Below, piece by piece: positions 2-20,369 of a DNA stretch of 22,642 nt. The stretch covers positions 1-22,642 of IMG/VR virus record IMGVR_UViG_3300012920_000301; one strand, written 5' to 3'. This DNA comes from a virus. Position numbers and translations under genes: made by a program. The notes below the pieces were generated by a model. That model was given only the letters and a program-made list of their open reading frames with translations. It was not told the DNA's origin and searched no databases. Numbering within the stretch: position 1 is the stretch's first letter; every line of letters starts with the position of its first letter.

Positions 2-697
2 ACTGTTGCCTCTTCATTCAATGAAAACACTGAGCAAATCGAAACTCAAACCAAGTCATCAGACCTCATTTCTTTGGAAAGAACTTTTGTTAGTGAGACA
101 GCGACTAATTTTTTAAATTATCTAAATTCAAAGAATATAACATTTAGAGTTTTTCTTGAGGAAAAAGTATATCTTGAAAATTTCACTGACGATAAGGGGA
201 ATCGTGGTAGTTACCCCAAAGGCACTACAGCAAGAACTCATTTCGTGGAGATGATTACACCCGGATATGTGCGACATGGAAATGCAACGCCTATGACAAA
301 CGCACAAATTAAAAATGCCCATCCTGAATTGACTGATGAAAAAATAAACACCATGCGAACCGCGTTTGAGTCTAATAAAAACATTAGACCATTCCCACTT
401 CCATTGGAGTCAAATACAAGTCTTTCTGAAAGCGATGTGCAACGGGCTATGCCTATTATCAATCAAATTTACTCAGACACGGCTAAAAAATCTCCACTAC
501 AAATTAGAGAAAATTCTGGCACAAATCCAGTGCCTTCTTACAACTCACCCGTTTCACGGTCAAAGGCATCAGTTCCATTTGTTTCACCGATTCAACCATC
601 AAGTGCAAATCCCGGTGACCTGTGGTACAATATAAAATTGGCTAAGATGTTTATCTTCATCAAGCAAAATTCACAAACATACTGGGTGGAATTGTGA
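2..697 (+). CDS. Partial virion protein of unknown family (3' end of gene; possible spike/hub component)
   Basis: The reading frame is open from base 2 with no start or stop upstream, so this is the C-terminal 231 residues of a longer protein cut by the window edge. The TTG at 74 is inside the frame and is not taken as the start. No family is recognised. The visible part is hydrophilic; a Pro/Ser-rich stretch precedes a C-terminal segment with the pattern PGDLWYN...YWVEL, a motif type I associate with phage tail and fibre proteins. The stop codon TGA (695-697) shares its last base with the ATG of the PAAR gene, indicating translational coupling. A gene directly before a PAAR tip gene is often the spike or hub (gp5 in T4), so that role is inferred from position only. 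I see no octapeptide beta-helix repeat of the T4 gp5 type. Coding is near certain; function is open. Confidence 0.8.
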   Translation, partial: TVASSFNENTEQIETQTKSSDLISLERTFVSETATNFLNYLNSKNITFRVFLEEKVYLENFTDDKGNRGSYPKGTTARTHFVEMITPGYVRHGNATPMTNAQIKNAHPELTDEKINTMRTAFESNKNIRPFPLPLESNTSLSESDVQRAMPIINQIYSDTAKKSPLQIRENSGTNPVPSYNSPVSRSKASVPFVSPIQPSSANPGDLWYNIKLAKMFIFIKQNSQTYWVEL

Positions 698-975
698 TGG
701 CAGTTTTAGGTGCGGCGAGAGAGGGTGATACGGTCGCAGGTGGTTCCATTTATGCCACTCGCGGAAAAAATGTTTATGTGAACGGAATTCCTGTCGCCAC
801 GGAAAACAGCATGGTCACACCTCATCCCAAAGACCATCCATCTGTGCCGATTGTAAGTGCGTCGAAAACAGTTTATACAAGTAATGGTCTTTTCGGTATA
901 GCCAGAGAAACAGATGTCGCTGCTTGTGGACACTCCATCAGCACCGCATCATCAACAGTAAAGGTAGGTAACTGA
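697..975 (+). CDS. PAAR-motif baseplate spike tip protein (T4 gp5.4-like)
   Basis: This 92-residue protein is predicted to form the conical tip that sharpens the central spike of the contractile tail. It contains two PAAR-type half repeats: AAREGD at residues 6-11 and IARETDVAACGH at 68-79. Three histidines and one cysteine (H43, H47, C77, H79) match the zinc-binding set known for PAAR tips. Length is typical of a stand-alone PAAR protein. The ATG at 697 is preferred over the GTG at 694 because it overlaps the upstream stop in a TGATG arrangement, with a purine-rich GGGTGGA at 684-690 as ribosome binding site. Its own stop overlaps the next gene's ATG in the same way. Family is confident; attachment to a gp5-like spike is inferred from family knowledge. 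Confidence 0.92.
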   Translation: MAVLGAAREGDTVAGGSIYATRGKNVYVNGIPVATENSMVTPHPKDHPSVPIVSASKTVYTSNGLFGIARETDVAACGHSISTASSTVKVGN

Positions 976-2942
976 TGGGATTTTGTTTCGACGATATAGC
1001 ACCAACGACAATTGGAGGACCATGTGGATTTTTGTACCCTACCTTGCAAAGAAACTTCTTTGAAAATCCAAATGCGTTAGGTACAGACTTAGATGTTGCA
1101 CTCGGTGTTAATAAAGTTGTTTACTTTAGTAACTTTTTCTTTGATGATGAACCCGCCGCAGGTGTGCCAACATCATATGAGGATTGGGTTACTAAAGAAC
1201 GCTCAGAAGTAAAGTCTAGACTACAGACATTCATTAATCAATACTTTCCAGTTGGCTCAGAAAAAAGAAGTATTCTGGATGACACATCAACAGTAATTAT
1301 TTGTGACATTGAGCCGCTTTTAAATAATATTCCAGACTTAACATCTTTTTATCAGGGTGGTGATTCACCCCCAAATGTTCAACAGTATTTTTTGGGTGAC
1401 TTGTATGAGATTTTAGGATTTTCTAGCACTGATGAGGAATACACACAAGTTACTAGATTCCTTGATGGTTTTCTTACAAGACTTGACGCTCTATCCGAAT
1501 TATTTCCAGACAAAGACGCAGATGGAAATATTGGAATTTACTTTGGACTGAGAGGTTTACAAGAAAAAGTGAATGGTGTTCCAGTTAGTGAGGCAGCAGA
1601 CTACTCAAAAGAAAAGGCAGGATTTGAAAAAATTCTAGGGGCAATTCTTGACGACCCTTTTAGTCCATTAACGCAAACTCAAAGGTTTAAATACAGAAAA
1701 CTATTTCAATCATACCCCAAGCAAATTGTTCGTTTTATTGTAAATAGTGATTTGACACCTGAACGTCAACTGTTTGACCAAGTTATCAACGCTGTTGATT
1801 TTCAGAATATTTCATATACAAACTCAAGGGTATCCGGTAAGTTCTCTGACCACTCAGAATTGATTGCTCACGTTTCAGTTGGATTCAATAACACTGGCGG
1901 TGGCTCAACTAATATTACAGAAGAGCAACTTGGACTAATTGTAAATGGTTTATGTCAACAGGTCCGGGGTGAGCAAGATAAAAAAATCTTCCAAACCGTC
2001 TTATGGTCATCCCCGGCATTTGAGCCTTTATTTTATCCACAAAACGGAGTTATCAGTGATTCTTCCATACCTTCCGGTGCAGGCACAAATCCAACCGGAG
2101 GTTATAATGGTGGTGGTTTATTCAATCTTGAATTGTTTAACACCACCGGATGTGAATTGCCGCCATTGCCGCTGCCTGCTGATGTTCTTGAATTGCTAGA
2201 GGCTATCGCAACCGGAGAGTTATTTAGAAATCCACTCGAAGGATTAGTTAATGCTGCCTTGGGGGCTATTGGTGATGTGGTCGATTCTGTGGTTGATGCG
2301 ATACCAAGCCCAGAACTTCCGGGGCGACCGGGAGAGGACGTATTAAGTTCCTTGCAAAGTGTCACCGACAGTGCGCAACAAATTACGAATGAATTCAACG
2401 ACCACTGTGCTAGGCTTAGTGGTGTAAGCAATTATCGTGAAGGGTTTGAACCCGGAGGTGGTGTGGGTGACTTGCCCGGTCTTGCTGGTCTTCAAGCAAT
2501 CGCCCAACAATACAATCAAATCAAAAATGTTTTTGAAAACGATGCCCTTGAGCAAGCCCTCATTGACCAGTATTCTCCTTTTTTCAGCAGCATCCTTGGT
2601 CCGGGTGACCAACTATACGAATCATTCAACTCCTTGATTGATGGCGACTTGAAAAACTTCTTGCTACAATTCCCCGTCACTGACGGTAGACTAGATTTAA
2701 GTCAGGCAACCGTAGAGCAACTCACTCAGTTTATTCAACTTGCGGATAGTATTGACAATTTGGTAAGAGACATCCAATTCCTCATAGACTCTGACAATGC
2801 GACGTATTTTGCGGCTGCTGACTATCTCGCCAAAAAGGCACTAGGCTTCTCAGTTCTCACCATGATGGAAGACCCGTGTTTTAGTCAAAAACTTCTTGGA
2901 CAAATTGCCAAACCAGACCTCAAAGGACTGCTAAACCTCTAA
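975..2942 (+). CDS. Unrecognised 655-residue protein, probable baseplate/tail structural protein
   Basis: I do not recognise this family. The start ATG overlaps the PAAR stop (TGATG) and has GGTAGG at 963-968 as ribosome binding site. The N-terminal half (about residues 1-370) is mixed alpha/beta and acidic. A Gly/Asn/Pro-rich linker lies at about 370-400. The C-terminal half looks largely helical, with a Pro-rich hinge (PELPGRPGED) and an Asp-His-Cys triplet at 476-478 followed by a Gly-rich turn. There is no signal peptide, convincing membrane helix or recognised enzyme motif. Its place between the spike tip and gp25 argues for a role in the hub or the hub-wedge interface. A protein of unknown function at this place is, as far as I recall, common in marine T4-like phages. 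Alternatives include a tail-assembly chaperone. Coding is certain; the role is inference. Confidence 0.85.
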   Translation: MGFCFDDIAPTTIGGPCGFLYPTLQRNFFENPNALGTDLDVALGVNKVVYFSNFFFDDEPAAGVPTSYEDWVTKERSEVKSRLQTFINQYFPVGSEKRSILDDTSTVIICDIEPLLNNIPDLTSFYQGGDSPPNVQQYFLGDLYEILGFSSTDEEYTQVTRFLDGFLTRLDALSELFPDKDADGNIGIYFGLRGLQEKVNGVPVSEAADYSKEKAGFEKILGAILDDPFSPLTQTQRFKYRKLFQSYPKQIVRFIVNSDLTPERQLFDQVINAVDFQNISYTNSRVSGKFSDHSELIAHVSVGFNNTGGGSTNITEEQLGLIVNGLCQQVRGEQDKKIFQTVLWSSPAFEPLFYPQNGVISDSSIPSGAGTNPTGGYNGGGLFNLELFNTTGCELPPLPLPADVLELLEAIATGELFRNPLEGLVNAALGAIGDVVDSVVDAIPSPELPGRPGEDVLSSLQSVTDSAQQITNEFNDHCARLSGVSNYREGFEPGGGVGDLPGLAGLQAIAQQYNQIKNVFENDALEQALIDQYSPFFSSILGPGDQLYESFNSLIDGDLKNFLLQFPVTDGRLDLSQATVEQLTQFIQLADSIDNLVRDIQFLIDSDNATYFAAADYLAKKALGFSVLTMMEDPCFSQKLLGQIAKPDLKGLLNL

Positions 2943-2950
2943 TTATTTCA

Positions 2951-2962
2951 TATAGATAAAGT
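2951..2962 (+). promoter_or_regulatory. Late-promoter-like element at the gp25 start
   Basis: TATAGATA (2951-2958) matches the T4 late promoter consensus TATAAATA at 7 of 8 positions. With T4 spacing, transcription would begin around 2964, at the gp25 start codon itself. The 11 bases 2952-2962 match elements before the gp8-like and fibre genes. No clear Shine-Dalgarno sequence is visible before this ATG. The element could instead be an AT-rich translation-initiation spacer. Confidence 0.4.
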
Positions 2963-3343
2963 ATGAGCAGATTTTCAGACATAGACCTAAATTTTGAAAA
3001 GAACCCGTTTACAAACGACGTAAATGTTCTGACAAATACTGACGGTATCAAGCGGTCTGTCAGAAATCTTGTTCTTTATAATTTCTTTGAAAAACCATTC
3101 AAGCCCAGATTTGGCGGAAATACAAAAGCCAAACTTTTTGAAAATGCAAACGCCTTGACTGCCATTGATGTCCAAGAGCAAATTGAAAATGTGATAAACG
3201 AGTCTGAGCCACGGGTGTCTCTAAATGATGTTATTGTAATCCCAAATATTGACCAGAATGGTTTTAACGTCAGCATAAACTTCACACCCATCAACACCGT
3301 TCAGCCGGTCATTCTACAGTTCGCACTTGAAAGGGCAAGATAA
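2963..3343 (+). CDS. 25: Baseplate wedge subunit gp25
   Basis: This 126-residue protein belongs to the gp25/GpW lysozyme-like wedge family, close in length to T4 gp25 (132). gp25 sits in the inner baseplate next to gp6 and helps couple sheath contraction to baseplate rearrangement. Diagnostic features are the N-terminal DIDLNFEKNPFTND segment (residues 7-20), a conserved NTDGIKRSVRNLVL helix, the FKPRFG motif in the first half, and a C-terminal beta strand ending near the last residues. It starts 20 bases after the preceding gene. The ATG at 2963 lacks an obvious Shine-Dalgarno sequence but aligns with the expected family N-terminus. The stop TAA shares a base with the gp6 ATG, so the two are probably translated together, as suits partners that meet in the wedge. 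Confidence 0.94.
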   Translation: MSRFSDIDLNFEKNPFTNDVNVLTNTDGIKRSVRNLVLYNFFEKPFKPRFGGNTKAKLFENANALTAIDVQEQIENVINESEPRVSLNDVIVIPNIDQNGFNVSINFTPINTVQPVILQFALERAR

Positions 3344-5382
3344 TGGCTATTAGCAGAAAAAACTTAAGTGTAAATGCCTTAGATTTTGACACTATCAAAA
3401 GTAATATTAAAGTATTTCTTAGAGAACAAGACACCTTCAAAGATTATGATTTTGATGGCTCAGGGTTAACTGTTCTTCTTGATATTTTATCATACTTCAC
3501 ACACTACCAAGGCATTTACAACAACCTTACAGCGAACGAACTTTTCTTGGATTCAGCGGTAAAGCGTTCGTCATTGGTTTCCCATGCTAAGTCACTTGGC
3601 TACACTCCAAGGTCAGTCACCGCCCCAGTGGCAACAGTTAACATTAATTTTTCAGTTGCCCCTACAGGATTTATTTTAAATCGAGGTAGGACTTTTAGAG
3701 CGACCGTCAACGGCAAGACATATAATTTTACAAATCTCGTAGACTACACGGTGACACCGGATGACACTGTTAACGGAGGCTTTGTCAACGATGTTGAAAT
3801 TCGTCAGGGTGTGTTGAGAAGTAAGTCTTTTATTGTTCCGTCGAACAATCAAAAAGACCAAAAATTTACTCTTCCAGACTCGAATGTTGATACAAAAACA
3901 ATCAAGGTTCAAGTCCTTGCTTCATCTACAGACAACTCAGGTGTTGAGGATGTCTGGGACATCGGAACAGATTACAATTTAATTACCGCATCTACAAATG
4001 CCTATTTTATTCAAGAAGATTTTGATGGCACATTTAGTATTTACTTTGGTGATGGAGTGGTTGGTAGAAAACTTAAGGCAGGAAACATTGTCTCTGTCTC
4101 TTATCTGAAAACTGATGGTGCTTTTACAAACGGCATCGGAAAAAACGATTCCGAGACAAACAGAACCTTTACTCTAAACACAAACTCTACGGTGACCACC
4201 GTAAGTCCTGCTGCCGGTGGGGGTGCAAAAGAAAGCATTACGAGCATTCGATACAACGCACCAAAATCATACGCCTCACAAAACAGAGCAATCACAACAA
4301 ATGATTTTGAGTCTTTGATTTCTAGTAATTTTTCTGGATTCAAATCTGTGTACGTCTTTGGTGGAGAAAACGCAGACCCCCCACAGTTTGGTAAAGTTCT
4401 CGTCGCTTTGAACCCAAACACAAATACAACAATTCCATCGAGTCTTAAGAAAGATATCGAGGCTTTCCTTAGAACGAAATGTTCTGTGGCGGTTACTCCT
4501 GATGTGATTGACCCAGTTCAAATGTTCTTTAGATATGCGGCAAATGTTGTGTATGACCCATCACAAACAACTTTGACAACTGCTAAAATTCAAAGTCTTG
4601 TGAGAGCAAAAATTTCAGAATATTTTGATAGTAACACAATCAACTTTTTCTCTGTGGTATCCCTAAGTAGAATGATTAAAGATGTTCTTGAGTCTTTGGT
4701 GGAGGTTGAGTCCGTTTCTTTGATTCCGTATCTTGAACAAAGATTTGAACCAAATCCAAATACACCAACTGGATATCAGTTGAAGTTTCAAAATCCAATC
4801 TTCCATCCACATGAGGGTCACTCCCCCGTGGTGTCAAGCAACTCTTTTGGATACGTTGACACAGACGGGTTGACAAAACAAGTTTTTGTTGATGATGATG
4901 GTAGAGGTAGACTTAGAGTTTATGAACTTGAGGGTGGTAATCGAAATTACTTAAATAGAAATTTTGGTTCTATTCTCTATGATAGTGGTATTCTTACTAT
5001 CAACACAAATGTTCTTAGTGTTTTCAATGCAGAAAATATTAGAATTAGAGTTGAAGTTGGCGCACAGCGTCTTGTCTCAAACCAAAATCATATCTTGACA
5101 CAAGATATTTCTGACTCCGGTAGAGCGACAGTAAATCTTTTCCTCGATGACAGACCTGATAGAAGAGTTGTTACTTCAACCGCCACAGAAAACGCTTATG
5201 TTGGAACCTCATCAATTTCATCCGTGTTAAATAATCAAATTGTTGCTGAACAAACACAAACACAATCACAGGGTGGTGGTGCAAGCGATATTCTCGTGCC
5301 ATTTAATCCTCTAACTGACCCACTTCAAATTCCTGTGACTTCGCCAACTAGTGGCTTCTACGAATCTGGTGGTGGTTACTAA
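3343..5382 (+). CDS. 6: Baseplate wedge subunit gp6 (baseplate J-like)
   Basis: This 679-residue protein is the gp6 wedge protein (T4 gp6, 660 residues), of the baseplate J-like superfamily. It forms the inner iris of the baseplate. The N-terminal region carries the strongly conserved stretch DYDFDGSGLTVLLDILSY at about residues 31-48, then ANELFLDSAVKRSSLVSHAK, and GYTPRS at 86-91. A central beta-rich domain includes the YFGDGVVG turn typical of baseplate J proteins. The C-terminal 60 residues are Gln/Ser/Gly-rich and look flexible. The ATG overlaps the gp25 stop and is preceded by GAAAGGG at 3329-3335. The stop overlaps the next ATG, giving an unbroken gp25-gp6-gp7-like set. Assignment is firm from motif order, length and synteny. 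Confidence 0.95.
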   Translation: MAISRKNLSVNALDFDTIKSNIKVFLREQDTFKDYDFDGSGLTVLLDILSYFTHYQGIYNNLTANELFLDSAVKRSSLVSHAKSLGYTPRSVTAPVATVNINFSVAPTGFILNRGRTFRATVNGKTYNFTNLVDYTVTPDDTVNGGFVNDVEIRQGVLRSKSFIVPSNNQKDQKFTLPDSNVDTKTIKVQVLASSTDNSGVEDVWDIGTDYNLITASTNAYFIQEDFDGTFSIYFGDGVVGRKLKAGNIVSVSYLKTDGAFTNGIGKNDSETNRTFTLNTNSTVTTVSPAAGGGAKESITSIRYNAPKSYASQNRAITTNDFESLISSNFSGFKSVYVFGGENADPPQFGKVLVALNPNTNTTIPSSLKKDIEAFLRTKCSVAVTPDVIDPVQMFFRYAANVVYDPSQTTLTTAKIQSLVRAKISEYFDSNTINFFSVVSLSRMIKDVLESLVEVESVSLIPYLEQRFEPNPNTPTGYQLKFQNPIFHPHEGHSPVVSSNSFGYVDTDGLTKQVFVDDDGRGRLRVYELEGGNRNYLNRNFGSILYDSGILTINTNVLSVFNAENIRIRVEVGAQRLVSNQNHILTQDISDSGRATVNLFLDDRPDRRVVTSTATENAYVGTSSISSVLNNQIVAEQTQTQSQGGGASDILVPFNPLTDPLQIPVTSPTSGFYESGGGY

Positions 5383-7658
5383 TGCCTGATGGTGGTTCAC
5401 TGCTTTTACCTCTTCGCGTTTTTGTTGAAGACCCATTTCCGTCAACACTTCCACAAAGTATTGACCAAAGGTTTTCTACAAAATTATCCGAACTCTTACC
5501 AGATTTTGTAGTTGAGGACCACCCAACTTTTGTCGCTTTCGTAAAGGCATATCTTGAGTGGACAGAGCAATTTGGTAATCCCAGAGCCGAAGCGGTTCGT
5601 GTCGCAAGTTATTATGATTTGGACAATACAATTGATTCATTTTTATTATACTTCAAAAGCACATATCTCTATGATTTTCCAGAGAGTCTTGCGAGTAATG
5701 TTGATGAAAGAGGCTTGATTAAAAATATTAAAAATTACTATGGTGCAAAGGGTAGTGAGCGTTCATTGGAGTTGCTTTTTCGTGTTTTGTACGACACAAA
5801 GGTATCTGTAGAGTATCCCAGAGAACAGGTGATTCGATTATCAGAGTCAGACTACTCAATCCGAAACGGGATTAAAATTACTAGAACAAACGGAAGACAA
5901 CTTACCTTTTACAAAGGTGGACAAGTGACACAACTTGACCCGTTGAACTCCACAACGATTTTGGGCAAAGCGGATATTGATGAAATTACTCTTCACAATC
6001 AAGAGGCTATTGACTACTGCCTAGTGACAGTTAAAAATGTCTCAGGTCAGTTCAAGCCAAATCAAGATGTAATTTTGTCTACCAACGCACGCCAAAATTT
6101 GACTGAAAGAGTTTTTGATACAATCAAAGAAGTTAATGTAAAAACAATTGGGGGCATTACACAAGACGGTCTTGGTTACAATGTTGATGACAAAATTATT
6201 GTTAAAGACCCCCAAAATAAAATTATTGGCTCTACTAGAATTCGCTCTGTGAGTGGCACGGGTCAGGTCACAGGTATTGATACCTTTAGAAGTGGCAGAA
6301 TTTTTAATCCGGCGACTGACTATGTTGTTGACGTTCAGACGGCTGGTGGCTCTGGTGCGCAATTTGACATTTTTGGTGGCAAGGCAATTTCGGAACTTGG
6401 TCGTTTGTATGAAACCGAACGCTCACTCATCTCATCTAGTTCAAGAATTCAAAACAACTTTTCATTCCAAGAGTTTTCTTATAGAATCAAAAGTAGTGTC
6501 GGTCTAAAAGATTACGCAAATATCATCAAAAAGGTTTTTCATCCTGCTGGCTCCATGCTTCTGGGTGCGTTTGAATTTAATGAAAACACTTCAATGATTG
6601 GTATGACTTTTTCCTCAAGTGCTGCTGATATCAGACCAAGGCTCATTCCTAGAATTGGTAATTATGCTCCGTATACAATTGGTGAAACCGCTGACCTTCG
6701 TGGGGACACATACGGCAACGACTTCTTAGGCTATACCTTTGGTGATTTTTATCCACTTGGTTTTGACGGTCTGACTGCGGCAACGGGAGCAAATTTTGAC
6801 CCTGCAACTGGGGCTGCAATAACACACGACGCATTCAGACCATTTGATATTCCAGAGTTGCCGCGAGTGCAACTTGGTAGTGGGTATTATGACAGTCCAA
6901 GGTCACCCCTCTACATTTATAATGGTTTTGAGGGACAGATTCTTGCAGGCTATACACTCTCGACTCGTCCCCAAACAGTTATGACCACTTCGGATGGCTC
7001 AACTTATGAATTTTATAACGTCTTTAGACATCCAAAATCTTTGTTTAATATCACATCGGAAACTCAGGCAGCATCTAGAAACTCAAACTTTAGATTTGTT
7101 CCGGGTCACGCTGGGGCATCTGGGGCTTCGGCAATCAAAAGGTCTTTCAACAAAGTTGAAATCTTTGGTGTGGATTTGAAGGGTACTTTCAGTGCAAATG
7201 ATATTTTTGAGCAACAAATACCTTTTTACGGAACCGTTAGAGGTAAGTTAACTAAAGACTTTGATACTGTTCAAGCCAGTACGGTTCCGGGCGGTCCTAA
7301 ATTCATGTCAAAAAAAGTTAGTGAATTTGATTCTTCAAGCACAAACACTGATTTGATTTCTGATTTTGATAATACTGAAAAAACACTCACAACACCGGGT
7401 TCTAATGTTGCCCGATTTACTTTTATCATGGAAAACGGAAACTTTACAAATCAGGAATATAAAGGGAGACAGATTCCAATTGTCAAGAAAGATGGTAGTG
7501 CATCATTCTTACTTGGTTTGGGGGACGGAACTGGCACGGTTGTAAAACTAGAAAGCACGCAGGGCGATACTGGCAATTTACAATTCGGCGACGTAAGAAT
7601 TGGCGATTTCTTTGATAATCTCTTTACTCCTACTCCCGGTGTCGATACAGCAAACTAA
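5382..7658 (+). CDS. Baseplate wedge protein, gp7-like
   Basis: This 758-residue protein resembles the C-terminal core of T4 gp7, the wedge initiator that binds gp10, gp8 and gp6. From my recollection of T4 gp7, three landmarks align: a helical segment with a run of residues before YYGAKGSERS (119-128), the adjoining LLFRVLYDTKVSVE strand region, and a later helix ending in FHPAGS at about 386-391, comparable to FVHPVGF in gp7. T4 gp7 is 1032 residues; the large N-terminal beta-propeller-like part is absent here, while about 350 residues of Gly/Ser/Phe-rich sequence follow the core. A GxGY beta module (GLGY at 263-266) lies between the landmarks. Position between gp6 and gp8 fits gp7. The start overlaps the gp6 stop. 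It could be annotated only as a virion structural protein in relatives; coding is certain. Confidence 0.75.
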   Translation: MPDGGSLLLPLRVFVEDPFPSTLPQSIDQRFSTKLSELLPDFVVEDHPTFVAFVKAYLEWTEQFGNPRAEAVRVASYYDLDNTIDSFLLYFKSTYLYDFPESLASNVDERGLIKNIKNYYGAKGSERSLELLFRVLYDTKVSVEYPREQVIRLSESDYSIRNGIKITRTNGRQLTFYKGGQVTQLDPLNSTTILGKADIDEITLHNQEAIDYCLVTVKNVSGQFKPNQDVILSTNARQNLTERVFDTIKEVNVKTIGGITQDGLGYNVDDKIIVKDPQNKIIGSTRIRSVSGTGQVTGIDTFRSGRIFNPATDYVVDVQTAGGSGAQFDIFGGKAISELGRLYETERSLISSSSRIQNNFSFQEFSYRIKSSVGLKDYANIIKKVFHPAGSMLLGAFEFNENTSMIGMTFSSSAADIRPRLIPRIGNYAPYTIGETADLRGDTYGNDFLGYTFGDFYPLGFDGLTAATGANFDPATGAAITHDAFRPFDIPELPRVQLGSGYYDSPRSPLYIYNGFEGQILAGYTLSTRPQTVMTTSDGSTYEFYNVFRHPKSLFNITSETQAASRNSNFRFVPGHAGASGASAIKRSFNKVEIFGVDLKGTFSANDIFEQQIPFYGTVRGKLTKDFDTVQASTVPGGPKFMSKKVSEFDSSSTNTDLISDFDNTEKTLTTPGSNVARFTFIMENGNFTNQEYKGRQIPIVKKDGSASFLLGLGDGTGTVVKLESTQGDTGNLQFGDVRIGDFFDNLFTPTPGVDTAN

Positions 7659-15189: not shown

Positions 15190-18100
15190 ATGCCAGAATT
15201 CCCACCACCACCCGGTTCCTCAGCAGGAAACACTTTAGATTCTCTTACCACAAATGATACATTCATTACATGGTTTGATAGAACTAATAAATTAATTGAG
15301 GCTGTCAATCCCTTAGCAATTTATGGTGCGACCACTTACGGTTCAGGAACATCATACGAGGGTGTGACAATTGCATTTAATAATGAAACTGGTATTCATA
15401 AATTTGGCTTCTCGACTCCTGCCGTCATTTATGGTAACACTGAGTTTGTTGGTGGAATTACTTTCTCCGGTGTGTATGTCTCCTTCAATGGTGGAACTGT
15501 TGACTTCCATACTTCAAATCTTTATGGAAAAGTTGTCACTAGCGTCAACGGTCAAACCGGAGATGTGACTGTTTCTGGAGGCGCAGGGAATCTTCCCGGT
15601 GCATCGACTGGTCACATCTTGGTATTCAATGAAGACGGAAGCACCTACCAAGCACAGCCATTCTTTTCTGGTGTGACATTTGATGTCATCGCCGCTACAG
15701 AGGGTGGAGGTCTTGTTTTAGGTGCTACCTTAACTGATGCAGGTGACTCACTTCAAAAAGGCTATGTGCAACTTGTAACTGCTGGTGGAAGTGCAGGTAT
15801 TCTTTTTAGGGATTCCTCTTACTCAGGTGCAAACCTTAGAGAACGAGGCTCCAATGTTCACTTTGGAAAAAATTCATCAAGTAACAGTTATGTGTTGACG
15901 ATTAGCGGTGGAGACACTGCGGGAACCTTGGACTCAAACACAAACGCTCCGTACGTTAATTTAGACCAAACCACAAGACGCTTAGGATTGTTTGGAATTA
16001 CTGTGCCTGCGGGTCCAATCCACTATCTTTCAAGAAACGGTGAGTCCGGTGATGTAATCTTTGAAAACAACCAAGGACAAACTTTTGGTGTTCATGTAAA
16101 TAACTCAAACCTCAATCTTACTCCAAATGAAATGAAAGAACTGCGTGTCACTCTTGGTGCTACCGCAGATGATGGACTTGTCAAGATTATTGGTAATAAT
16201 CCCTTTGAAACATCTAAAAATATTTTAAACGTCACACAACTTGGTGATGTGGTTATTGGTGCGGAGGACATCGGAAGTTCTGGTGACACTTATGGTGCGT
16301 TGAATATTGCGAGTGGCAGACTCTTCATTGGCGGAAGTGCTGGACAAGATGGATATGTCTTAACATCAACTGGAACCGCGTCTGAGTGGCAACCCGCACC
16401 AGTTAGCAGCCCAGAATTTATTGCAGAACTTTCCGATGGTTCAACTGGTAGTATTTTTGGAGTTACGACACCCACTGAATTTGAATTTGCCGGTGGGTTC
16501 AATACTGATTGTTTAGGATTTAGTGGTGGTGGTACATCAACAACTGGTGGTGTTGAAATCCGCTCCTTTATGACCGGAACAAGCAATCTTTTTGGTGATG
16601 TTATCGAAAGCAGTAGTTTGGGTGGCAATACCTATGATGGGTTTAACATCCTTACACTGGGCGGCATTTTCCATGAAACATCTGTTCATACTGATGTAAA
16701 TGGTAGAAGAATCTTATCTTATAACTTCTTTGGTTCTCCAACTCAGGGAGATGACGGTGCAACTGGTTCAATCGGTGCGTTGTATATTGATGGCTCGCTT
16801 GCTGCGACTGGTGCATCACTTGAAGGTATTGATTTTAGAACGACAACCGATACTAAAGGTTTAACACTTTCTTACACTGTTGCACCCGGAGGCACGACCG
16901 CTAGAGTTAATTATCAAGTAACTGGTTCTGGTCTTGGTGGTGGTTCTACCGGAAGCACTGGGTCAGTTGGTCCCCAAGGAAGGACAGGTTCCGCAGGAAC
17001 AACTGGCTCTACTGGTGCAACCGGCTCTACCGGCTCAACAGGTTCAACCGGCTCGACTGGTTCAACGGGTTCAACTGGTTCGACAGGAATGGCTGGATTC
17101 AGATATCTTTGTGATACTACTCCATCGAATGTTGCAGCGGGTGAATTGAGTTTTGATAACAACGCAAGTTCAGGTCCGGTTGTTACGATTAACAAACTAA
17201 ACGCGGATGGTGTTGATATTTCAACATACATGGATTTGATTACTGCGTCACCGAGTGACACGATTATTATCCAGAAACAAAATGGCTCTTCCTTTAGGAC
17301 TTTGAGAGTCACGGGTGTTACTCAGGGTGCATCAAATTATGAATTTGCCGGTACGACTGCTGGTGGTGGTGCGGTGTTCTCCGCCTCAGATAATTTGTAT
17401 TTTTACTTTACCAAAACTGGAGCAGGCACGACAGGCACAACTGGTACAACCGGAACGGCGGGTGGTGGAACAGGCTCCACTGGTTCGACTGGTTCAACGG
17501 GAACCACTGGTGCAGCGGGAGTCACGGGAACCACTGGTTCAACAGGCTCAACTGGTGCGACTGGTTCAACGGGTCAACCCGCTGGATTCTTGTATGGAAC
17601 CACGGCTGCAAATCCCGTAGGTAATCCGGGTAAAATTTACACTATCCAAGCCGGAAGTGTCATGTCGTTTGCTATTAATGCAACCGCTGAAAATGGTGCT
17701 GATTTATTCGATTATCTTATCAATGGTGCAACCACAGATAGAGTCGTTGTGCAGAGCAGAGACTCTGGTGACTTCGCTGCGGTGATTCCAGAAGCCGGAG
17801 TGGGCTACGTTACCGCTGGTAATTTCTTTACCTTTACAAGCACGAATGCGGCAAATCAAGCCGGTGCTTCTTTCGCAGCCGGTGAAGATGTTTACATGTA
17901 TATTGTAAAGGGTGCGGTTGCTCAAGATGGCTCCGCAGGTGCAGCAGGTTCAACTGGTTCTACAGGCTCGACAGGCTCTACAGGTGCGACTGGTTTTGCA
18001 GGATTCCGATATGAACTTATCGAGGGCGACTCGAATGCAACTTCCACTCCCGGTGCTGGTGAAATGGTCGTGGACACATCAACCAATGGCTCTGGGTTTG

Positions 18101-19476
18101 TCAAGATTCATACCACCGATGCTGATGGCAATAATCTAAATGCCTTCTTCTCTGGCACAAGAAGTGTTATGAAAACTGGAGACAGTTATCTTGTTGCGGG
18201 TGTAAGTGCTGGAAATAACTTGTACGTTTCTGGCACTGCTGTGCCTTACAGTGTTGCGGCGAGCGTCGTTACAATGACAGGCTCAGGAAATTTTGCTCGT
18301 TCAAGCAACGTGTTGCCTATCGGTGGCAGTGTTTACATCTCATTCTCCAAGGCTGGTGGAACGGGTGCAGAAGGTCCGGTGGGTATTGGCGCAACAGGCT
18401 CCACTGGCTCGACTGGTTCTACAGGTTCCGATGGTGCAGCAGGAGCGACAGGTTCCACTGGCTCGGCAGGAACATTTGTTCGCTCTGGTTCTGCTGTTGA
18501 TGCAAACTCAGTAAACTCCATTGAGGGAGTGCCTAATCTTCACATCGCTGCCGGTAGTGGAATCGCTATCGACCTGCTTGAAGACCCGACCAATAGTGCT
18601 GCCAAGTATACGATTACTAACACTGGTGGCGGCGACGGCGGTCCCGGCACTACTCCCGGAGGTGCTATTGTTGGTGTTCGTGTTGATGAAATCCGCGTAC
18701 CACTTTTGGATGGTAGGTCAGGTGGAACGGCTGACCTTGATGCTCTCTTAATTAACGATTTGGAGGCTGGAGAAGATGGTAGTCAAAATATGATGAACTA
18801 TAACTTTGTTCCCTCAAATTATGATTCGCAAACTGACCCCACGGGCAGAAACGCCGTGTGGAATATGGTTCCGTTTTATAATAACTATACAGTTGGAAAT
18901 GTGGGGCAGGTCGCATCCGTGCAATTGCGGTGCAATGACGTAGGAAAAAATCTTATCCTCCCCTCCGGCGCAAATTATAACATGCCAAGAACATTCTCTG
19001 ATGAGTTAACAGGAACCTCAAGTCCAGTTGGTCAATTACTTGAATTGAGAGAGGGAAACTACCTTTATCACGTTAAATATGACATCGACCATCAAACAAC
19101 GTCTGATTTGCAGTCCGCTTTTGCATTTAGGGCTGTTCCAACCACTGGTAGTGATTCGGGACTTGCTGGAACATCAGATTCAAGTGGATTCTTTGCTCAG
19201 GACGAGGGACTGGCAAGCACAAGTATGCTTGGAATTGAAAGTGGCGGAACCACTAAGAAACGAAGAATTGGTGTCAATGGCGATGTTACTAGCCTCAGTC
19301 TTGAATATTGGCTTGATGGAAATAGTCTTCCCGGTGCAGGTTTACCCGGAAGTAATCGATGTTTGGGATTGTGTGTAAGTGGTATGTCAAACTCAAATAC
19401 GGCTACTGGTACTTTCCACACAGCAGGCAGAATCCTGTTTGCCAGAAGAACTGTTGTAATCTATAGCAAGTCTTAA
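15190..19476 (+). CDS. Collagen-like tail fibre / receptor-binding protein
   Basis: This 1428-residue protein is a probable trimeric fibre. Residues 18-45 (SLTTNDTFITWF, then NPLAIYG) look like an attachment segment, and VTSVNGQTGDVTV at about 116-128 is a motif frequent in phage tail fibres. Beta-rich sequence continues to about 580. Four Gly-X-Y blocks, mostly Gly-Ser-Thr, lie at residues 585-635, 746-797, 914-937 and 1059-1094. They are separated by three ~110-120-residue domains of common pattern, beginning GF[RL]Y and ending Y.[YS][IF].K.G. A Gly-rich linker at 1146-1158 leads to a 270-residue terminal domain with Cys at 1248, 1391 and 1395, which I take as the receptor-binding tip by position. 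It replaces neither a chaperone nor an enzyme: no catalytic motif is seen. Other possible roles are whisker/fibritin or a head or neck decoration fibre, since gp13 follows. Fibre nature is confident; receptor binding is inferred. Confidence 0.87.
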   Translation: MPEFPPPPGSSAGNTLDSLTTNDTFITWFDRTNKLIEAVNPLAIYGATTYGSGTSYEGVTIAFNNETGIHKFGFSTPAVIYGNTEFVGGITFSGVYVSFNGGTVDFHTSNLYGKVVTSVNGQTGDVTVSGGAGNLPGASTGHILVFNEDGSTYQAQPFFSGVTFDVIAATEGGGLVLGATLTDAGDSLQKGYVQLVTAGGSAGILFRDSSYSGANLRERGSNVHFGKNSSSNSYVLTISGGDTAGTLDSNTNAPYVNLDQTTRRLGLFGITVPAGPIHYLSRNGESGDVIFENNQGQTFGVHVNNSNLNLTPNEMKELRVTLGATADDGLVKIIGNNPFETSKNILNVTQLGDVVIGAEDIGSSGDTYGALNIASGRLFIGGSAGQDGYVLTSTGTASEWQPAPVSSPEFIAELSDGSTGSIFGVTTPTEFEFAGGFNTDCLGFSGGGTSTTGGVEIRSFMTGTSNLFGDVIESSSLGGNTYDGFNILTLGGIFHETSVHTDVNGRRILSYNFFGSPTQGDDGATGSIGALYIDGSLAATGASLEGIDFRTTTDTKGLTLSYTVAPGGTTARVNYQVTGSGLGGGSTGSTGSVGPQGRTGSAGTTGSTGATGSTGSTGSTGSTGSTGSTGSTGMAGFRYLCDTTPSNVAAGELSFDNNASSGPVVTINKLNADGVDISTYMDLITASPSDTIIIQKQNGSSFRTLRVTGVTQGASNYEFAGTTAGGGAVFSASDNLYFYFTKTGAGTTGTTGTTGTAGGGTGSTGSTGSTGTTGAAGVTGTTGSTGSTGATGSTGQPAGFLYGTTAANPVGNPGKIYTIQAGSVMSFAINATAENGADLFDYLINGATTDRVVVQSRDSGDFAAVIPEAGVGYVTAGNFFTFTSTNAANQAGASFAAGEDVYMYIVKGAVAQDGSAGAAGSTGSTGSTGSTGATGFAGFRYELIEGDSNATSTPGAGEMVVDTSTNGSGFVKIHTTDADGNNLNAFFSGTRSVMKTGDSYLVAGVSAGNNLYVSGTAVPYSVAASVVTMTGSGNFARSSNVLPIGGSVYISFSKAGGTGAEGPVGIGATGSTGSTGSTGSDGAAGATGSTGSAGTFVRSGSAVDANSVNSIEGVPNLHIAAGSGIAIDLLEDPTNSAAKYTITNTGGGDGGPGTTPGGAIVGVRVDEIRVPLLDGRSGGTADLDALLINDLEAGEDGSQNMMNYNFVPSNYDSQTDPTGRNAVWNMVPFYNNYTVGNVGQVASVQLRCNDVGKNLILPSGANYNMPRTFSDELTGTSSPVGQLLELREGNYLYHVKYDIDHQTTSDLQSAFAFRAVPTTGSDSGLAGTSDSSGFFAQDEGLASTSMLGIESGGTTKKRRIGVNGDVTSLSLEYWLDGNSLPGAGLPGSNRCLGLCVSGMSNSNTATGTFHTAGRILFARRTVVIYSKS
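16942..17094 (+). repeat. Collagen-like repeat block 1 of the fibre gene
   Basis: Seventeen uninterrupted Gly-X-Y triplets (residues 585-635), mostly Gly-Ser-Thr, encoded by 9-base units. Neighbouring units are never identical at DNA level because glycine, serine and threonine codons alternate. The block probably forms a collagen-type triple helix. Confidence 0.9.
17425..17580 (+). repeat. Collagen-like repeat block 2 of the fibre gene
   Basis: Gly-X-Y triplets at residues 746-797 with one phase interruption (GlyGlyGly at 758-760), after which the phase resumes at 762. Richer in Gly-Thr-Thr and Gly-Ala-Ala than block 1. Such an interruption would kink or loosen a triple helix. Confidence 0.88.
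17929..18000 (+). repeat. Collagen-like repeat block 3 of the fibre gene
   Basis: Eight Gly-X-Y triplets at residues 914-937, ending Gly-Phe-Ala just before the third globular module (GFRY at 938). This is the shortest of the four blocks. Confidence 0.88.
18364..18471 (+). repeat. Collagen-like repeat block 4 of the fibre gene
   Basis: Gly-X-Y triplets at residues 1059-1094 with a one-residue phase slip at Gly-Ile-Gly (1065-1067). It follows the third globular module and precedes the C-terminal region. Confidence 0.87.
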
Positions 19477-19574: not shown

Positions 19575-19651
19575 ATGTCGAAACCAACAACAAGAGAAGA
19601 GTTAAAACAGTACGCTCTGAGGAAACTGGGCGCACCAGTAATCGAGATTAA
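19490..19651 (+). other. Doubtful small ORF (53 residues, very basic) overlapping gp13 start
   Basis: A TTG-initiated frame runs through the leader into the gp13 gene in a different frame. Its first ~25 residues are strongly basic (for example KGKSLRRRKPRS), followed by overlap with gp13 codons. There is no convincing ribosome binding site before the TTG, and TAG codons lie directly upstream in frame. It may be only a by-product of a purine-rich leader. Recorded because the lysine/arginine content is unlike the acidic structural proteins around it. Confidence 0.15.
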
Positions 19652-20369
19652 TGTCGATGACTCTCAGTTAGAGGACTCTCTCGACGATGCAATTCAAATG
19701 TTCAACGAATACCATTTTGATGGTGTTGAGCGTGTTTTGTATAAACATGAAATCACTGAGACAGATATTCAAAATGGTTTTATTGACACCGATTCCATCG
19801 GAGCCACTGGACCAAATGGATATCCTCAAGTTGAAGATTCAAAAGAACTTATTTCTGTAACGAAGGTTTTTCAGTTTGACCAAGGCGGTGCTGGTTCAAA
19901 CATGTTTAGTGTTCGTTACCAAATGGCTTTGAACGATACCTACGGTCTTCGATATGGTGGTGATATGACAAATTATTATATCACCCAGTCGTACATTTCA
20001 CTCCTAGCAGACATGTTAGACCCTGAAAAACAAATTCGTTTTAATCGAGTCACAAATAGACTGTACCTCGACATGAACTGGTCAGAACTTGTTAGTGCTG
20101 GAGATTTTATTGTAATTGATGGATATGCCGCTATTAATCCAGAAACATACACTGAGGTGTACGATGATATTTTGCTCAAACGATATGTAACCGCATCATT
20201 TAAAAAACAATGGGCTATGAATCTGATGAAATATCAAAACATTAGTCTTCCCGGTGGTGTTCAGTTTAACGCTGACCAGTTATTTTCATCCGCTACCGAC
20301 GAGATGGAAAAAATTGAGGAAACATTACAAGACAAATACGAATTACCACCTGACTTCTTCACGGGATAA
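19575..20369 (+). CDS. 13: Neck protein gp13
   Basis: This 264-residue protein is the T4-type neck protein gp13, which with gp14 seals the portal after packaging and forms the tail-docking site. The N-terminus TREELKQYALRKLGAPVIEI and the following acidic helix region (INVDDSQLEDSLDDA, then FNEYHFDGVE) are characteristic. A central YQMALNDTYGLRYGG segment and the C-terminal ELPPDFFTG also fit the family. T4 gp13 is somewhat longer (309). The ATG at 19575 has AAGGAG 8 bases upstream. It is the first gene of a tight gp13-gp14-gp15-gp16-gp17 run, only 2 bases before gp14. Confidence 0.94.
   Translation: MSKPTTREELKQYALRKLGAPVIEINVDDSQLEDSLDDAIQMFNEYHFDGVERVLYKHEITETDIQNGFIDTDSIGATGPNGYPQVEDSKELISVTKVFQFDQGGAGSNMFSVRYQMALNDTYGLRYGGDMTNYYITQSYISLLADMLDPEKQIRFNRVTNRLYLDMNWSELVSAGDFIVIDGYAAINPETYTEVYDDILLKRYVTASFKKQWAMNLMKYQNISLPGGVQFNADQLFSSATDEMEKIEETLQDKYELPPDFFTG

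Follow-up and report, generated by a model that had tools for sequence, protein, structure and literature searches.

Organization of the fibre locus

The window, that is, the whole stretch of DNA analysed here, is an entire IMG/VR virus record (IMGVR_UViG_3300012920_000301; 22,642 bases), and it carries a long tail-fibre gene in which four collagen-like blocks alternate with three small modules, M1, M2 and M3 (Table 1). All three modules are flanked by Gly-X-Y runs, as a preliminary description of this DNA had claimed, with the end of M2 lying near residue 909 instead of 913. Collagen (PF01391) was the only Pfam family listed for the fibre at E ≤ 1 (E = 1.3e-13); it passed its cut-off (50.9 bits against 27.2) and covered four stretches. 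A further 17 PHROGs families match the fibre, several of them described as tail fiber protein. Ser, Thr and Ala abound in the collagen-like blocks, and proline is very scarce. The N-terminal region is probably the attachment side of the fibre, and the C-terminal region probably its receptor-binding tip.

Table 1 Features of the fibre gene and of the neck protein gene in the window (residues refer to the fibre protein)
Feature	Position	Strand	Residues	Remarks
Tail-fibre ORF	15190-19476	+		1428 aa; 5' neighbour is an 1838-aa ORF, 3' neighbour is the neck protein gene
N-terminal region	15190-16629	+	1-480	Conserved relative to six relatives
Collagen-like block 1	16942-17094	+	585-635	17 Gly-X-Y
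Module M1	17095-17424	+	636-745	Position-1 subtype
Collagen-like block 2	17425-17580	+	746-797	Interrupted once
Module M2	17584-17916	+	799-909	Position-2 subtype
Collagen-like block 3	17929-18000	+	914-937	8 Gly-X-Y
Module M3	18001-18363	+	938-1058	Type-B subtype
Collagen-like block 4	18388-18477	+	1067-1096	No module after it in this fibre
C-terminal region	18478-19473	+	1097-1428	Variable
Neck protein (T4 gp13-like)	19575-20369	+		Neighbour gene used to find relatives

The neck protein matches 1837 phage records, all of them below 60% identity, including many from T4-like phages that infect marine bacteria; annotations among the listed matches are neck protein, head-tail adaptor Ad2 or hypothetical. 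In pelagimyophages, a host-recognition cluster is reported to precede the neck gene gp14, and structural proteins with collagen repeats are reported as well (PMC7029224).

Two further features of the locus were observed. Antisense ORFs on the minus strand (16914-17312, 17922-18104 and 18333-18521) face the collagen blocks and contain Pro-Val-Glu-type repeats; they are most likely by-products of the collagen repeat codons. In addition, residues 543-583 (16816-16938), which precede the first collagen block, and residues 1110-1150 (18517-18639), which come after the last one, have a common short motif and a Gly-rich end, and are a possible but weak second repeat (25 of 1000 shuffles reach the score).

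Common origin of the three modules

Pairwise alignment linked M1 to M2 (z = 8.5; 0 of 1000 shuffles reach the score) and M1 to M3 (z = 5.0; 1 of 1000) significantly, whereas the match between M2 and M3 was not significant locally (629 of 1000) and marginal globally (23 of 1000). Profile-profile comparison with three fibres per profile gave probabilities of 98.5 for M1-M2, 95.8 for M1-M3 and 5.5 for M2-M3. We also performed shuffle tests with profiles that drew solely on other fibres, in which 1996-2000 of each 2000 shuffles were scored; here and below, M1, M2 and M3 are written W_1, W_2 and W_3 after the slots 1-3 that they occupy in this fibre. None of 2000 shuffles reached the score of W_2 or W_3 against the position-1 profile, or that of W_1 against either the position-2 or the type-B profile, while 4 reached that of W_3 against the position-2 profile and 34 (35 on repeat) that of W_2 against the type-B profile. 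Homology of M1, M2 and M3 is thus supported, strongly for M1-M2 and more weakly but significantly for M1-M3. Judged by sequence, M1 is the member that ties M2 and M3 together, and the M2-M3 comparison by itself would not convince; the kinship of that pair is marginal when tested directly, and draws on M1 and on the structural models of M1 and M3 described below.

The preliminary description had proposed that the three segments are diverged copies of one module, and this proposal of common origin is supported by the sequence comparisons together with the predicted structures of M1 and M3. The motifs by which it had recognized the module are looser than was claimed. The opening GF[RL]Y is present in all three modules here but in 7 of 33 overall; the exact central motif (acidic-A-[DN]-G-x-[DN]-[IL]) is found here in M3 only and in 1 of 33 overall; and the exact ending motif (Y.[YS][IF].K.G) occurs in M1 and M3 but not in M2, and in 2 of 33 overall. 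Invariant residues were limited to Y4 and G16 in a 13-row alignment and to G16 in 28 rows.

Predicted fold and structural matches

An AlphaFold2 model of M1, made from an alignment with 12 other rows, was predicted with a pLDDT of 92.9 and a pTM of 0.85; it comprises seven strands, and a short helix follows strand 3. For M3, the alignment was limited to five position-3 rows to keep M1 sequences from dictating the fold; the resulting model has a pLDDT of 75.9 and a pTM of 0.75, and three of the five M3 models were poorer (pLDDT 62.5-63.9). The order of elements matches between the M1 and M3 models, as read from two strand lists and not from a superposition: one long strand is split in two in M3, and a strand-turn-short-helix element is present in both. 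Structure prediction for these two modules therefore returned a matching strand order and not unrelated folds.

Convergence or shared composition, with no common ancestry, could in principle produce a resemblance of this kind, and the near-chance score of M2-M3 taken alone would fit such an origin. However, shuffled and reversed controls alike stay below the M1-M2 and M1-M3 profile scores, none of 33 tiles placed outside the modules scores above 3.6 bits against the position-1 profile (bar one that overlaps M1), and the separately made models of M1 and M3 agree. We consider an origin without common ancestry hardly credible.

Among solved structures, the best Foldseek match for M1 had E = 0.37. 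A second structure aligner matched M1 and M3 to small beta-barrels (Upf1, the V-ATPase N-terminal domain, HerA and T5 pb9) and to parts of GH110 and K1 lyase; the best match had Z = 6.5 (rmsd 2.9, 88 aligned) for M1 and Z = 4.8 (rmsd 3.0, 73 aligned) for M3. M1 and M3 align to nearly equal ranges of Upf1 (325-418 and 325-414), K1 lyase (142-233 and 142-230) and T5 pb9 (94-170 and 94-169), with Z from 4.4 to 6.5, values that may reflect only a common arrangement. When solved structures were searched by sequence, the low-complexity blocks drew mostly collagen and kinesin-fusion chains, and the modules had no convincing match.

Predicted viral structures gave closer matches. In BFVD, 40 entries match M1 at E ≤ 0.001 (best 3.4e-7; TMq up to 0.86), 24 of which are named collagen triple helix repeat, 9 unnamed and 7 otherwise named; they include proteins of S-CAM7, S-H34, Klosneuvirus, Indivirus and Marseillevirus LCMAC102. 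M3 has 17 matches at the same threshold, and 16 of these are common to the 40 of M1.

Module number in related fibres

We collected relatives by two scans, one with the neck protein (the best 80 of 593) and one with the fibre N-terminal domain (16 loci). Eight of the 84 loci gathered by the end of the neck-protein scan, lying on five contigs, carry modules by profile, in addition to a fragment (L004) that matches 21 residues. Exact-peptide scans with single modules found one near-identical contig and, for M3, also a contig matching its last 21 residues. Many of the loci are short, but some that extend 10 kb ahead of the neck gene (L015, L017 and L018) show no module, so a fibre with modules is not general among these phages.

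Modules were counted in the 13 contigs that cover the module region, source record included. Not counted were L090, L093 and L095, whose contigs stop short of this region, together with the fragment L004 and with L100, where collagen is lacking and the only match is a distant N-terminal one. Three modules are present in this fibre, L085 and L008, and four in L007, L087, L088 and L099, the last of which is identical to L088 over its 1431 aa. The remaining six (L010, L014, L094, L096, L097 and L098) have two strong modules and a weak N-terminal one that lacks a long collagen block before it. The weak module scored between E = 0.0035 and 0.11 with a first profile, and reached 1.5e-6 in L010 and 6.5e-5 in L014 with a 28-row profile that contains no such module. 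The third module of L007 was missed by the first profile and scored 19.0 bits with a type-B profile from which it was excluded. Counting modules in related fibres thus showed that their number varies, from two plus a weak copy to three and four.

The fibre of L085 is 98% identical to this one over 458 base columns, with 42 differing alignment columns over about 1430. Between the two fibres, a 9-base deletion and a 3-base insertion lie in frame in or beside block 1 (16942-17094). We considered a change in collagen length between the two fibres and rejected it, as both runs comprise 18 triplets when the first module triplet is counted; block 1 therefore displays in-frame indel activity with no net change.

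As a separate observation, inserts of 36-44 residues break collagen blocks in L007 (residues 597-632) and in L010 (residues 722-765 and 917-953). Read by eye, they occur once in L007 and twice in L010, and resemble a smaller second repeated unit.

Slot-specific subtypes and the history of the units

In a tree of 33 modules, the slot-3 modules of five fibres and the slot-4 modules of L007 and L087 branch off as one group (99/99), and we refer to these as type B. The slot-1 modules cluster at 84/81, and the slot-2 modules form no resolved group in the tree. The three modules of this fibre placed as one clade gave a p-AU of 0.0193. Other groups, which were picked after the tree was seen, gave p = 0.283 for L088_4 with type B, 0.0965 for L088_3 with L088_4 and 0.0955 for L007_3 with L007_4, none of which is rejected, and p = 0.531 for slot 2 with L088_4.

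Leave-one-out profile scores, given in the order position 1, position 2 and type B, were 68.4, 61.6 and 25.5 bits for W_1, 28.9, 39.5 and 5.9 bits for W_2, and 18.5, 9.2 and 51.3 bits for W_3. On these sequence scores the modules of this fibre are slot-specific, each scoring highest with its own slot of other fibres. An exception elsewhere is L088_2, which scores higher with position 1 than with position 2. At slot 4, L007_4 and L087_4 score highest with type B, and L088_4 is position-2-like (38.0, 58.1 and 19.0 bits). The claim that the second module has diverged most did not hold in this comparison, since it is M3, not M2, that belongs to a separate subtype, although the terminal branch of M2 (1.49) is slightly longer than that of M3 (1.38).

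The preliminary description had also suggested that the fibre may grow or shrink by duplicating a unit of collagen plus module. Variation in unit number agrees with this suggestion, but the copies are old and slot-specific, and no trace of recent duplication is found in the DNA: at the nucleotide level the three modules of this fibre are no more alike than expected by chance (scores reached by 109, 74 and 112 of 300 shuffles), which argues that the duplications are old. A stricter form of the idea, in which recent duplications or deletions in place alter the unit count, can draw on counts ranging from two plus a weak copy to four, on the type-B modules that fill both slots 3 and 4 of L007 and L087, and on the sister pairing of L007_3 and L007_4 that the AU test left standing. 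It is opposed by the missing DNA similarity, by the higher scores of this fibre's modules with the same slot elsewhere than with its own other slots, and by slot 4 of L088, which scores as another subtype, and we regard it as very unlikely. Among fibres on one kind of base, a whole unit at slot 4 is present in some and absent from others, and this slot seems to draw on two module types, a pattern that leans towards unit gain or shuffling over in-place duplication and is suggestive of two sources. The base tree is unrooted and resolved only in part, and the direction of the change in unit number fits gain and loss alike.

Base, tip and possible mosaicism

Relative to six relatives, residues 1-135 are 47-77% identical and residues 136-480 are 37-44% identical. 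The C-terminal region has no clear similarity to four of the six (z = 0.2-1.1) and resembles that of L008 (40% over 127; z = 18.1) and L088 (z = 8.4). For the neck protein, identity to L007, L008, L010 and L014 amounts to 80-83%. The base joins L007, L087 and L088 instead of L008 (p-AU = 0.0349 for residues 1-140 and 0.0559 for residues 1-480), while M3 is closest to that of L008 (z = 14.3), as is the tip. A base nearest L007 combined with M3 and a tip nearest L008 is suggestive of a mosaic fibre that may have arisen by recombination within the shaft.

The concentration of variability in the C-terminal region also bears on another reading of the modules, namely that lateral binding, for instance to surface glycans, is their main function and that the collagen blocks merely serve as spacers. 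Repeated binding domains occur in phage fibres, the modules differ between slots, and polysaccharide-active proteins are present among the weak structural matches, which speaks for lateral binding. However, no conserved site is evident given the one or two invariant residues reported above, the most variable part of the fibre is the C-terminal region, and the structural matches, with Z of 6.5 at most, perhaps denote a common arrangement only. We regard lateral binding as the main role of the modules as rather unlikely.

The module in other viruses and its closest known counterparts

To describe the spread of the module we used a profile of 28 modules (A7). In a set of eight T4-like records it matched S-CAM7 (E = 1.4e-10), which had been picked for its fold match, and none of the other seven. 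In a second set 11 of 12 records match, six of which supplied rows of the profile and match by construction; four of five GenBank records match (LR756501 of 735 kb, MA01, S-H34 and S-CRES1), as does the IMG/VR contig of L120. RcapNL, a candidate carrier by fold (E = 7.0e-4), has no profile match and was rejected. A tblastn search with the whole fibre, the module region and the modules of two relatives gave no match among 50,697 phage records, and the S-CAM7 module gave 16 matches in the same records, so that failure of a single-module search says little.

When the 28 modules were compared with curated libraries, no family matched more than one of them in Pfam (best E = 0.0041) or in NCBIfam (best E = 0.024). 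The Pfam family FlgD_ig (PF13860) was considered for M1 and set aside, being listed for 1 of 28 modules at 17.5 bits, below its cut-off of 27. Two genome-contig scans by short peptide patterns found no cellular relatives, which is weak evidence, and we noticed no literature on this module in PMC, whose coverage leaves subscription papers partly outside.

Two of the matching records have unusual features of their own. In LR756501 (L121), an uncultured phage, the open frame at 2-6844 encodes a fibre that has very long Gly-Thr-Ser-type repeats and one module. In S-CRES1 (L124), the module match at about 3001-3336 begins ahead of both the open frame and the annotated 'fibritin' start, and this module seems to be interrupted or misannotated between two genes.

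The closest known counterpart is a 'collagen triple helix repeat protein' of Synechococcus phage S-CAM7 (NC_031927), probably the BFVD entry A0A1D8KUV5, which matches the M1 fold at E = 6.2e-7. Like the modules here, that of S-CAM7 has Gly-X-Y runs on both sides; unlike this fibre with its three modules of three subtypes, the S-CAM7 protein, encoded by an ORF of 517 aa (500 aa in BFVD), has one module by profile and differs in its N-terminal part. The module is also encoded by Synechococcus phages S-H34 and MA01 (E = 1.2e-10 and 1.6e-10), in genes annotated 'minor tail protein' or 'baseplate wedge tail fiber connector' that lie, as here, just upstream of the neck protein gene, in their case with one small ORF between. 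Their 501-aa proteins differ in having one module and no visible collagen blocks, and the module is therefore not only a collagen cap. By predicted fold only, the M1 model also matches five BFVD entries named 'Collagen triple helix repeat' (E = 7.2e-6 to 9.3e-5) from the giant viruses Klosneuvirus KNV1, Indivirus ILV1 and Marseillevirus LCMAC102.

The joining of collagen blocks to other domains in a phage fibre is also seen in the E. coli prophage fibres EPclA-EPclD, which the published account describes as modular; EPclB has two Col domains with a Pf2 repeat between them, and PCoil and PfC are reported to be trimerization modules beside collagen (PMC3368898). The domains PfN (PF08400), Pf2 (PF03406) and PfC (PF06820) were not found in the fibre studied here at Pfam E ≤ 1. 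Since trimerization modules next to collagen are reported for EPcl fibres, the general plan was already known (PMC3368898); the module here is different.

A model of the fibre shaft

The reading we favour, and consider probable, is that of a beads-on-a-string shaft built from units of a collagen-like block and a small beta module, running from a conserved base to a fast-changing tip. Shared ancestry, slot-specific subtypes and varying unit number are results of the comparisons above; in addition we infer a trimeric fibre with module caps and a receptor-binding tip. Each module would trimerise and thereby cap, register and stabilise the next proline-poor Gly-Ser/Thr/Ala rod; the modules would also provide a knob or hinge and join the rods to one another. 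The repetitive collagen codons could act as joints allowing units and tips to be acquired, lost or swapped, and such changes would alter the reach of the fibre and leave the base untouched.

We put forward more tentatively, as a possibility that we would not yet call likely, that the modules belong to an unnamed viral family of trimerising caps, seen by sequence in several phages, one of 735 kb among them, and in giant viruses by predicted fold, which would allow proline-poor rods of chosen length to be built from interchangeable units. Each slot subtype would be fitted to its adjacent collagen, and both reach and tip would change by recombination at the joints.

Collagen-containing phage fibres were already known, while the registering of proline-poor rods and the evolution of fibre length are less understood. 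This family of fibres offers a natural series in which related bases carry 2, 3 or 4 units, and its module has a confident predicted fold and is unnamed in the curated libraries searched, so that trimerisation, rod stability and fibre reach are approachable through single units. If the module is indeed a collagen cap, this would help to explain its recurrence in many viral proteins that are labelled only 'collagen triple helix repeat'.
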